DNA from: Elusimicrobia bacterium GWC2_64_44
Lineage (GTDB): Bacteria; Elusimicrobiota; Elusimicrobia; Elusimicrobiales; UBA9959
Direction of reading: 5' to 3'
Assembly: GCA_001799845.1 (NCBI GenBank)
Contig: MGUG01000041.1
Coordinates: 1 to 64,000, forward strand
DNA length: 64,000 bases
The translations under genes were made by a program, and so were the position numbers. The number at the start of each line of letters is the position of its first letter. Positions within the stretch are counted from its first letter, which is position 1. Below the pieces are notes generated by a model, which was not told the DNA's origin, did no database searches, and worked only from the letters and a program-made list of their open reading frames with translations. Below are positions 54,013-57,545 of the stretch, piece after piece.

Positions 54013-54032
54013 CCTCAACGCTCCGGACGAAG

Positions 54033-54065
54033 CGGCCGCCCCTCACCGGGCGGCCGTTCTCTTTT
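54033..54065 (+). terminator. Terminator after mutS
   Basis: A 9-bp stem CGGCCGCCC / GGGCGGCCG with a 6-nt loop is followed by TTCTCTTTT. Confidence 0.78.
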
Positions 54066-54117
54066 GGCCCAGAAGATAAGGGGCCCTTGGACCCATACAG
54101 ATAATGCGCGCAGTTAC

Positions 54118-54123
54118 TATAAT
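54118..54123 (+). promoter_or_regulatory. -10 element (TATAAT) of the C11 protease gene
   Basis: A perfect TATAAT lies 17 nt before the ATG at 54141, with GGGGAA between as a weak ribosome-binding site. No convincing -35. Confidence 0.5.
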
Positions 54124-54140
54124 TTAATACGGGGAAACTA

Positions 54141-55574
54141 ATGACCAAATCGCTGCTGCTAACCATGTTCTCGGTGCTGTCCTTCTGCGCTCCTTCTTTT
54201 GCCCGGCCCTTCAGCCTGGACTCCGTCCGGGCCGGGGAAGTCGCCTCGGCGGAACTCCCGGTTATGCCCCAGGCCGCGGTCCCGGCGCAGGCCGAGCCCA
54301 AGGAATGGACCATAATCTATTACTCTACCACCAAGGATTTCAAGCTGCGCCCGTCCTTCCTGATCCAGATGCTGGACCTCAAACTGGCCGGCTCCAGCGG
54401 CAAGGTTAACGTGGTGGTCGAAGGCTCCGTGGTGGCGCAGGCGGAGGACGGTTCCATTTCCACGCCGACGCTGCGCATGGCCATAGGCGGCGAGCCGTGG
54501 AGCCTGGAGAAGGCCGTGACGGTTTTCAATGAAGGTATGGACCTGAAGACCAGATTCGTGAAAGAGAGCGCCCTCCGGGAGTTCTCGGGCGATATCGTTA
54601 GCCGCGAGACCGGAGTGGACACCGGCGACTGGCGCCACGTGGCGGAATTCGCCCGTTGGGCCAAGGCTAACTACCCCGCCAAACGCTACGCCTTCCTTAT
54701 CTTCGGCCACGGCAACGGCATAGTTGACGCCAAAAAGACGGCGGAGAAAGGCACGCTGGCGGATGAGGACACCAAGAACTACGTGACCATTCCCGAGATG
54801 CGCCTGATGATGGCGGAGATCGGCAAGGTGGACGTTTTCCTGATGCAGTCCTGCCTGATGCAGATGGCCGAGGTGGTCTGGCAGGTCAAGGATTATACCG
54901 ACGTGGTGGTGGGCTCCAGCGAGTTCCTCTGGTCCAACGGTTTTTTCACGCCCGCGCTGCTCAAGGCCCTCAACGAAAACCCGCAGTTCCCTTCTCTCGC
55001 CGTCGGCGATCTCATGGCGGAGTCCTACGTGGCCACCTTACCGCAGGACAAGACCGGGCACGTGTCGGTGATCCCCACCGCGGCCCTGCCCCGCTTCGCG
55101 GAGAAACTGGACGCCTGGGCCGACGCCGTAATGAAGGCCGACGGCCGCGACGCCGCGATGAAGGCCCGGCATAAAACGGTGCGATTCGACTCTTTCGGCC
55201 TCGTAACCCTTTCTACGGCCCAGTCCGTCAACTATTCCATCTCCGGCGACCTGTACGATTTCGTCAGGCTGACCACCGAGAATATACCGCGGGAGACGGA
55301 AGAACAACTGAAGGCAGCTGAAGCCGGCCGTGCCCTGATGGAAGATATTGAGAAAAGCCTGGTCTACAAGTATTACTACAAGGGCGCCACGGTTACCGGT
55401 TTCGATTATTCCGTCCCGCGCGGCATAGCCATACACGTGCCGCCCAGGAAGATCCTGACCGGGTCCGTGGACGGGATGTACTCGCAGATAATGCAGACCA
55501 ACTACTGGGACCTGCCTTTCGCCAGGGAGACGCGCTGGGGCGCTTTCCTGAACTGGATCTACCGCGGTAAATAA
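54141..55574 (+). CDS. Secreted clostripain-family (C11) cysteine protease
   Basis: The 477-aa protein has a signal peptide (about 1-21) and a C11 peptidase domain. The fold starts at 'KEWTIIYYSTTKD', the catalytic His is in 'YAFLIFGHGNGIVD' and the catalytic Cys in 'VDVFLMQSCLMQMAEV', followed by 'VVVGSSEFLWSNGFFTPALL'. C11 enzymes (clostripain, PmC11) cut after Arg or Lys and are often autoactivated. The C-terminal 'SVPRGIAIHVPPRKI' is also found in that family. The five-repeat exported protein gene follows after 15 bp, so the two probably share an mRNA. Confidence 0.88.
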   Translation: MTKSLLLTMFSVLSFCAPSFARPFSLDSVRAGEVASAELPVMPQAAVPAQAEPKEWTIIYYSTTKDFKLRPSFLIQMLDLKLAGSSGKVNVVVEGSVVAQAEDGSISTPTLRMAIGGEPWSLEKAVTVFNEGMDLKTRFVKESALREFSGDIVSRETGVDTGDWRHVAEFARWAKANYPAKRYAFLIFGHGNGIVDAKKTAEKGTLADEDTKNYVTIPEMRLMMAEIGKVDVFLMQSCLMQMAEVVWQVKDYTDVVVGSSEFLWSNGFFTPALLKALNENPQFPSLAVGDLMAESYVATLPQDKTGHVSVIPTAALPRFAEKLDAWADAVMKADGRDAAMKARHKTVRFDSFGLVTLSTAQSVNYSISGDLYDFVRLTTENIPRETEEQLKAAEAGRALMEDIEKSLVYKYYYKGATVTGFDYSVPRGIAIHVPPRKILTGSVDGMYSQIMQTNYWDLPFARETRWGAFLNWIYRGK

Positions 55575-55589
55575 GCCGGAGGAACAACG

Positions 55590-56762
55590 ATGCTGAAGAG
55601 AACTTCTTTCCTGTCCCTGCTGTACGCGCTGGCGCTGTCGGCGCAGACGCTGCCCGCGGCCGAGCTGGCCGATATCGCGGCTGACGATATCCGCAAGGCT
55701 CCCGTCGCCGCTCCTTCCTTTCCGTCGGCGGTAACGCCGCCCGGGGTGACGATAGCCAGTTACACCACCGACGAAGAATTCACCTTCGAGAGCGAAGCGG
55801 TACCCGCCATGAACGCGCGCATCAACGCCCTGAAAGCCGCCGGCGTCACCACGCTGGGCGGCCGCGTGGTTGAGCTCGGCAACGATTATTCCTTCGTCAT
55901 CGACTATCTGTCGACCGTGAAGGGCAACGCCGCCCTGCCGCCCGCCGTGCTGCTGGAAACCTATAAGAACGGCGCCGCCTATTGGCTGGAGCGCGAGGCC
56001 GAGGAGGCCATGAAGGCCTGCGCGGCCAATTTCCGCGCGGCCAAGCTGCCGGTGCTGGGCTCCTACCTTTACGAGGCCGGCAACGACAACGCTTTCGCCG
56101 TGGATTACCTGGTTAAGAACCTGCTGCGCCCCGCGCAGGAATACGACGTGAAGTTCCAGTCCTATACCGGCGGGAAGTTCACCTTCGAGAGCGAGGCCGA
56201 AAAGGCCGTGCCCTCGTACCTCGCGCTCTTCAAACAGGCCGGCGTGCCGGCCATACGCGGCAAAGCCGTAGCCAGCGGCCGCGACTATGCCGTGCAGGTG
56301 GAATACGTGGTCAAGACCGGGAAGTCAGCGCCGCGCCCGCAGTACTCGGTCGCCCGCTACGCCGCCCGCGAGACCTTCACCTTCGACAAGGAAGCCCTGG
56401 CCGCCTCCAAAACTGCGCTGCCTAAGTTCGCCTCCGCCGGCGTGCCGCCGCTGTCGGCCGTGCTGCGCCCCGAGGGCCGCGACTATTCTTACAGCGTGGA
56501 TTATCTCGTCGGCAATATCTACCAGCAGGGCGGCGTGATACCTTCCGTGGCCATAGAGACCTACCAGGCCCCCGAGACCTATACCTTCGACAGCGAGGCC
56601 AAGAAGGCCCTGGCCGAAAAGGTGGCGGCCTTCAACGCCGGGGGACTGCCGGTGGTCGGCTCCGCGCTGAGCGGCGAGCTGGGCTCCTACACCTACGCGA
56701 TAGACTACATAGCCAAGGCCGGCGCCCAGGGCCCGGTCTTCCCCCCGCCGCCGCAGTATTGA
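55590..56762 (+). CDS. Exported protein made of five ~65-residue repeats, unknown function
   Basis: The 390-aa protein has a signal peptide (about 1-24) and then five tandem units of about 65 residues. Each runs roughly 'sYtt.etFtFesEA', a helix, 'aGvp.l.g.vv..G.dYsy.vdYl'. Examples are 'EFTFESEAVPAMNARI', 'KFTFESEAEKAVPSYL', 'TFTFDKEALAASKTAL' and 'TYTFDSEAKKALAEKV', and the ends 'NDYSFVIDYL', 'RDYSYSVDYL' and 'GSYTYAIDYI'. The second unit is the most diverged. The order strand-helix-strand-strand suggests a small alpha/beta module. No family is recognised. It is coupled by position to the C11 protease gene. Confidence 0.7.
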   Translation: MLKRTSFLSLLYALALSAQTLPAAELADIAADDIRKAPVAAPSFPSAVTPPGVTIASYTTDEEFTFESEAVPAMNARINALKAAGVTTLGGRVVELGNDYSFVIDYLSTVKGNAALPPAVLLETYKNGAAYWLEREAEEAMKACAANFRAAKLPVLGSYLYEAGNDNAFAVDYLVKNLLRPAQEYDVKFQSYTGGKFTFESEAEKAVPSYLALFKQAGVPAIRGKAVASGRDYAVQVEYVVKTGKSAPRPQYSVARYAARETFTFDKEALAASKTALPKFASAGVPPLSAVLRPEGRDYSYSVDYLVGNIYQQGGVIPSVAIETYQAPETYTFDSEAKKALAEKVAAFNAGGLPVVGSALSGELGSYTYAIDYIAKAGAQGPVFPPPPQY

Positions 56763-56781
56763 GCCGGCGGTTTTGCAACGG

Positions 56782-56809
56782 ACCCGGGCCGCGCGCCCGG
56801 GTTCTTATT
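56782..56809 (+). terminator. Terminator after the five-repeat protein gene
   Basis: An 8-bp stem ACCCGGGC / GCCCGGGT is followed by TTCTTATTT, directly before the CPBP gene's ATG. Confidence 0.75.
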
Positions 56810-56810
56810 T

Positions 56811-57545
56811 ATGGAACCTAAGAACCCTTTCGAGGGAATTCAGACTTACGGCAATTTCGGTCTCCTCTGGCTGTTCGCGGTCGTTATCCTCGCTATCCAG
56901 GTGGCGTCGCTGCTGCTGATGGAGATACCCGCCCGCGCCCTGGGGGTCAAGTTCGACACCTACGAGGCGTCCATCCCCGGGTTTATCCTTACGGCGCTCG
57001 CTTCCTGGTCGCTGCTGGCGGACCTCGGGGTTTCCTGGCGCCAGGCCTGGAGCGACTGGCAGGCCAATGCCCTGGCCGACCTGCGCAAGGCGCTGCGCTA
57101 TCTGCCGGGCTACGCCGGGGTGCTGCTGGGCATGGGGCTGGTGCTCGCCGCCGCCTATTATATCTGGGACGATTCTTTCGCGGCGCTGATGAAGCACGTC
57201 TCGGCCTCCGGCGCGGACCAGGAGGCCAGCGTGAAGGCGATGGCCTTTTCCGCTCCGCGCTTCGCCCTGCTGCTGCTGCTCGCCTGCGTGGCCGCGCCGC
57301 TGGCTGAAGAGCTTTTCTTCCGCCGCATAGTCTTCGCCTCGCTCAGGGCCAGGAAGGGCTTCTGGTTCAGCGCCCTGTGCTCAAGCCTCCTGTTCGCGCT
57401 ATTCCACGGCGGCGGCGCCCCGGTAACGCTGCTGCCGGGGGTCTATTTCTGCTGGGTTTATGAAAAAGAGCGCCGGCTGCCGGCGAACGTCATGCTGCAC
57501 GGCCTGGTCAACTTTTTCGCTGTGCTCTTTAGAACGTTCAGTTGA
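56811..57545 (+). CDS. CPBP-family intramembrane metalloprotease
   Basis: The 244-aa protein has about six membrane helices and the CPBP (CAAX protease/bacteriocin-processing) motifs: 'APLAEELFFRRIVFASL' (EExxxR), 'SSLLFALFHGGGAP' (FxxxH) and 'NVMLHGLVNFFAVLF' (HxxxN/D). These form the membrane-embedded active site. Bacterial members process prenylated or secreted peptides, mature bacteriocins or give immunity; the substrate is unknown here. It lies directly after a terminator, so its promoter must overlap that region. mutL follows 19 bp later. Confidence 0.9.
   Translation: MEPKNPFEGIQTYGNFGLLWLFAVVILAIQVASLLLMEIPARALGVKFDTYEASIPGFILTALASWSLLADLGVSWRQAWSDWQANALADLRKALRYLPGYAGVLLGMGLVLAAAYYIWDDSFAALMKHVSASGADQEASVKAMAFSAPRFALLLLLACVAAPLAEELFFRRIVFASLRARKGFWFSALCSSLLFALFHGGGAPVTLLPGVYFCWVYEKERRLPANVMLHGLVNFFAVLFRTFS

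Follow-up and report, generated by a model that had tools for sequence, protein, structure and literature searches.

Within the window, by which is meant the whole 64,000-nucleotide stretch of DNA analyzed (its genome is referred to as G000), a gene for an exported protease of the C11 family lies head to tail with a gene for an exported repeat protein, here termed REP. The question raised by this locus is whether the two proteins act together, and if so whether REP is dedicated to the protease encoded beside it or is related to C11 proteases more broadly. A first-pass annotation of the DNA had read the pair as a dedicated two-component system. The locus was compared with its counterparts in related genomes, which are nearly all MAGs of varying completeness.

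Organization of the Locus and Its Transcription Unit

The gene order across relatives is mutS-[C11]-REP-CPBP-mutL, in which C11 is optional, and the elements of the window locus are listed in Table 1. The C11 and REP reading frames are separated by 15 bp, just as first annotated. The CPBP gene is a neighbor of the C11-REP unit, and its membership in the unit is uncertain; it is itself swapped or missing among close relatives. In two loci, the mutS-mutL interval also holds small open reading frames that by eye resemble IS200/REP-associated transposases (L124:5742-6431 and L189:9091-9717).

Table 1. Features of the C11-REP locus (positions in the window).
Feature	Position	Strand	Basis or remark
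Terminator-like hairpin 3' of mutS, parting the unit from mutS	54031..54058	+	11-bp stem, T-rich tail
GGCC-N4-GGCCCATAC element of promoter leader, operator-like	54081..54098	+	Conserved in most same-genus genomes
-10 box TATAAT, common to both genes	54118..54123	+	Aligned and conserved across relatives
C11 protease gene, 477 aa product	54141..55574	+	Pfam PF03415; presence/absence and tree
C11 signal peptide (MTKSLLLTMFSVLSFCAPSFA)	54141..54203	+	By eye
Catalytic His190 codon of C11 (GHGNG)	54708..54710	+	Aligned to solved C11 structures
Catalytic Cys238 codon of C11 (MQSCLM)	54852..54854	+	Aligned to solved C11 structures
REP gene, 390 aa product, conserved locus core	55590..56762	+	
REP signal peptide (AAELxxI-type N-terminus)	55590..55658	+	By eye
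REP unit 1	55743..55943	+	
REP unit 2	55944..56141	+	
REP unit 3	56142..56339	+	
REP unit 4	56340..56543	+	
REP unit 5	56544..56729	+	
Shared intrinsic terminator 3' of REP	56780..56804	+	Hairpin, conserved in relatives
CPBP/CAAX-type intramembrane protease gene	56811..57545	+	Pfam Rce1-like, E 1.4e-19

Approximately 95 nt of sequence preceding whichever gene comes first in the unit can be aligned across most same-genus genomes, and this leader holds the GGCC-N4-GGCCCATAC element, the TATAAT box and a GGAGG sequence irrespective of whether that gene is C11 or REP. A consensus scan of the plus strand returned no sigma70-type site, because no -35 sequence fits, and genome-wide matches to the leader motif did not exceed those of a reversed-pattern control. 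Downstream of REP, most of 23 genomes examined have a hairpin of the CCCGGGC type ending in a T-rich tail, and in G008, where the gene has been relocated, REP is still followed by a similar one. Since both leader and terminator are conserved across same-genus genomes, they are unlikely to be chance matches; a promoter and terminator common to both genes, as the first-pass annotation had proposed, are thus strongly supported by the sequences. From this conservation and the 15-bp gap, we infer that C11 and REP are co-transcribed.

The C11 Protease

The identification of the protease as clostripain-like has held up well. It matches Pfam Peptidase_C11 (PF03415) with 99 bits and an E-value of 5.5e-28 (curated cut-off 25.8), both catalytic residues are intact, and the N-terminus reads by eye as a Sec signal peptide lacking a lipobox. 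In its Pfam match, His/Cys motifs, and signal peptide it therefore resembles the clostripain family (MEROPS C11, PF03415; clostripain, fragipain), but it differs from clostripain proper in scoring just 28.6 bits against the NCBIfam clostripain equivalog TIGR02806, whose cut-off is 550 bits. The C11 proteins of this locus constitute a single clade separate from their paralogues (SH-aLRT 100) and the residue preceding their catalytic Cys is Ser, not Ala (MQSC or MTSC).

C11 genes are strongly expanded in this genus, with 15 Pfam matches in the G000 genome (on C15, C54, C13, C27, C60, C19, C41, C24, C22, and others) and between 5 and 22 in 15 other genomes. They are often arranged in tandem, and the reduced genomes of sister family f2 have almost none.

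The REP Protein

REP consists of five units with a period of about 66 aa, visible in the DNA as a 198-nt periodicity. Its N-terminus too looks by eye like a Sec signal peptide, with no lipobox, in keeping with the earlier assignment of signal peptides to both proteins. AlphaFold predicted each unit with high confidence as beta-alpha-beta-beta, using an alignment of 39 rows all drawn from the same group; the mean pLDDT was 87, exceeding 92 over most of the units, the pTM was 0.78, and the linkers between units were predicted to be ordered. The REP protein of G091 (L189:7594-8946) possesses a sixth unit, so the number of units varies.

Searches against Pfam, NCBIfam, and PDB sequences with the REP protein, the REP alignment, or individual units as query returned nothing credible, the top PDB sequence hits being designed TPR proteins matched over a 20-residue stretch only. 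Foldseek comparison of the full and two-unit models with the PDB and viral models gave no match with E below 0.001, and neither the sequence nor the Foldseek searches matched REP to known inhibitor folds. The best PDB match of the two-unit model was the MVL lectin (E 0.048, probability 0.63, TM 0.26-0.29). The predicted repeat architecture thus appears to have a convincing counterpart in no solved structure.

The likeness to MVL, although weak, favors an explanation in which REP would work on its own, in the periplasm or after secretion, as a binding or structural protein that might recognize glycans, and C11 would be an unrelated accessory drawing on its promoter, the two sharing expression and export without interacting. 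Against this, the structural scores are low and the MVL family model (PF12151) fails to match REP: it gave no match at the REP locus in 10 genomes even at an E-value of 10, and the MVL lectin idea was set aside on this profile test. The one match above cut-off in relatives (L205) is a long beta-barrel-like protein without REP units.

Distribution and Linkage in Relatives

REP is present in 29 of the 32 genomes from the same genus, G000 counted, and, in the first sample, in three further genera of this family. Of 295 genomes sampled across the phylum, 41 contained it, all but a few of them from the same family, and 41 REP loci recovered from GTDB genomes belonged to Elusimicrobia(ota) or to MAGs of the same group. 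Relatives beyond the phylum were sought by short patterns in GTDB contigs and in viral contigs, the latter yielding none; as far as searched, the REP family appears to be confined to Elusimicrobiota.

Five same-genus genomes have a C11 gene as the immediate upstream neighbor of REP (G000, G028, G026, G017, and G027, the last with two copies), and in G003 one open reading frame separates the two. Tight C11-REP operons also occur in other genera (L124 and L189), such that the gap measures 1-37 bp in eight loci from at least two genera. In about 20 same-genus genomes, however, REP occupies the same place without C11. G008 and G004 have C11 in the mutS-mutL interval without REP, which has been relocated together with its leader, and in G035 C11 adjoins mutL without REP. 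The proposal of a dedicated two-component system consequently fares poorly, as the pair is unlinked in most same-genus relatives: conservation of the pair is evident as tight operons in several genera, but linkage has largely broken down inside the genus, even though the association is old. The retention of REP without C11 is strongly supported, and because close relatives often lose or swap C11 yet keep REP, REP is the core of the locus; the adjacent C11 is, judging from these comparisons, an exchangeable accessory gene. This retention, and the relocation of REP with its own leader, are what an independent role for REP would lead one to expect.

The relocated REP gene of G008 (L084:14933-15775) adjoins a gene whose product, judged by eye, is an exported trypsin-like protease with an N-terminal linker resembling that of REP.

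Exchange and Loss of the Protease Gene

Between the closest pair of genomes, G000 and G028, MutS, REP, and MutL are 96, 89, and 95% identical, compared with 52% for C11 and 64% for CPBP; the CPBP of G000 is 91% identical to that of the more distant G009. Synonymous divergence follows suit, with dS values of 0.28 for mutS, 0.42 for REP, and 0.37 for mutL versus 0.92 for C11 (0.92-1.01 for C11 and CPBP), and the protease alleles are therefore of older or foreign history.

On a tree of the REP body, the presence of C11 is scattered and requires six changes, of which four or more are forced. The REP proteins of C11-less relatives bear the same type of signal peptide as the window C11 (MTKSLLLTMFSVLSFCAPSFA), and this C11-type N-terminus, comprising the signal peptide and the residues next to it, is found in 21 of 23 C11-less same-genus REPs and in none of the seven adjacent to C11, all of which carry a different N-terminus. 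The REP profile correspondingly matches the N-terminus of the window C11 (E 2.2e-4). Some C11 paralogues (L057 and L058) score similarly to the locus C11 in this comparison, and the N-terminus type is therefore one shared by C11 proteins at large.

The exchange is clearest in the close pair G026 and G019, whose mutS genes are 98% identical. At the DNA level, the part of the G019 REP gene that runs from promoter to signal peptide aligns to the start of the G026 C11 gene, and the part from the proline-rich linker onward to the G026 REP; that the G019 REP is a C11/REP chimera, and that N-termini have been exchanged between the two genes, is strongly supported by these alignments. The C11-less loci look as if an in-frame excision of C11 had left REP with the start of the protease gene. 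Since outgroup genera keep the C11-REP arrangement with a REP-type N-terminus, we infer that the direction was loss of C11 and not gain. The locus thereby provides what appears to be a clear natural case in which an operon gene was removed and its expression and export signals were inherited by the next gene.

In these genomes, a loosely conserved sequence, approximately [F/L]xLxxhxAxDI and then a proline-rich segment, recurs behind the signal peptide of many exported proteins, among them C11, REP, and REP-like proteins (e.g., L057, L171, L175); it may serve in sorting or belong to a propeptide.

These data also bear on whether the pairing is purely positional, numerous C11 genes occasionally landing between mutS and mutL. 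With about 15 such genes in the genome and C11-REP adjacency the minority state in the genus, occasional insertion might be expected; nevertheless, the locus proteases form one clade apart from their paralogues, the short gap recurs in several genera, and the exchange of N-termini points to a long common history, all of which make a purely positional pairing improbable.

REP as a Candidate Substrate

The first-pass annotation had suggested that REP is a substrate of the neighboring protease, and that Arg/Lys sites be looked for between the repeats. Cleavage by the co-encoded C11, between repeats or in the N-terminal linker, might serve activation or release from the surface; other exported proteins are cut at Arg by C11 proteases (PMC9308784), and Lys or Arg is present in three of the four REP linkers. 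The linkers do not differ in Lys/Arg content between REPs that have an adjacent C11 and those that lack one, however, the two conserved linker Arg residues mostly precede Pro, and linker 4-5 has neither Lys nor Arg. The substrate reading is disfavored for these reasons, and linker Lys/Arg was rejected as a sign of C11 cleavage. As REP also outlasts the loss of C11 and its linkers are predicted to be ordered, there is little likelihood that REP is cut by its neighbor.

Relationship of REP to C11 Proteases in General

Two REP-like groups beyond the main locus adjoin C11 genes. At G011:C33, a C11 gene of another clade is followed after about 36 bp by a REP-like gene, and in G029, G030, and G016 a REP-like gene is divergent from a C11 pair of another clade. 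Assuming about 12 C11 genes per 3 Mb, the chance of C11 adjacency is approximately 2% per locus by hand estimate, and that of finding two of eight to ten REP-like groups beside C11 is roughly 0.01, again a rough hand estimate, which is unlikely but not extreme. C11 is carried by 40 of 41 REP-bearing genomes (the exception, in which C11 was not detected, being G123), a figure confounded by shared ancestry and genome size. Outside the family, C11 occurs in 4 of 5 REP-bearing genomes versus 22 of 244 others (Fisher p 4e-4, ancestry ignored). Conversely, 10 of 46 family genomes, including the C11-rich G248 and G035, have C11 genes and no REP by the full-length profile; C11 proteases therefore do not need REP.

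A further REP-like paralogue of 314-456 aa (L170, L173, L174, L175) adjoins an apparent DinB-type polymerase gene in several genus genomes, distant from any C11 gene.

A functional tie of REP to C11 proteases generally is likely in view of these associations. The adjacency of REP-like genes of other groups to C11 genes, and the near confinement of REP to C11-bearing genomes, count against a REP with no connection to C11, an explanation that is nonetheless a serious contender, if a doubtful one. The reading preferred here, tentatively, is that REP is exported as a partner that binds or guards C11-family proteases generally and is not the substrate of its neighbor; it is quite plausible, though short of probable. 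The transcription unit would be built around REP, an exported Elusimicrobiota protein of tandem beta-alpha-beta-beta units, and a C11 gene could occupy the slot between the unit promoter and REP, to be repeatedly lost, kept, or exchanged. REP would act as an inhibitor, scaffold, or quality-control factor for the C11 family, represented by some 15 genes in G000, and co-transcription would supply protease and partner together. A bolder version, in which REP represents a new phylum-specific family of exported multi-unit C11 inhibitors or guards, one protein restraining many paralogues with C11 as an exchangeable cassette behind the promoter of its guard, seems rather unlikely.

REP is in any case a conserved, uncharacterized exported family. 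If it does restrain or direct C11, the expanded secreted proteases would gain a dedicated protein partner, an idea testable with two small proteins.

Comparison With Known Systems

The literature on Elusimicrobia and clostripain offered nothing specific, and the earlier view that the pair matches no known system agrees with the comparisons made here, since it fits none of the systems considered. MVL, like REP, is built of tandem domains, in its case of 54 aa (PMC3407925), but REP has five units of 66 aa, a signal peptide, and no PF12151 match. Among C11 proteases, fragipain is responsible for the release of many surface proteins, and BcpT owes its activation to C11 family members acting at LTR sites (PMC9308784). 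The C11-activated Bacteroidales toxins BcpT and Bft offer a parallel, being exported proteins on which a C11 protease acts (PMC9308784); REP differs from them in having no toxin domain and no C11-linked pattern of cleavage sites.

Cysteine proteases co-transcribed with an inhibitor are exemplified by staphopain/staphostatin, SpeB/Spi, and the Bacteroides C10 proteases (PMC3462683). Staphopain/staphostatin and the Bacteroides C10/Bfi-Bti systems share with C11-REP a gene for an exported cysteine protease that is co-transcribed with a neighboring partner gene (PMC3462683). The staphostatins, however, are small proteins (their Bacteroides relatives have 116-138 aa) with a presumed cytoplasmic site of action and a predicted beta-sheet structure, whereas REP has 390 aa, a signal peptide as judged by eye, and five alpha/beta units; the protease belongs to another family, and REP outlives its loss. 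Our best guess is that REP serves C11 proteases as an exported partner or guard, in an arrangement comparable to staphopain/staphostatin yet unrelated to it.
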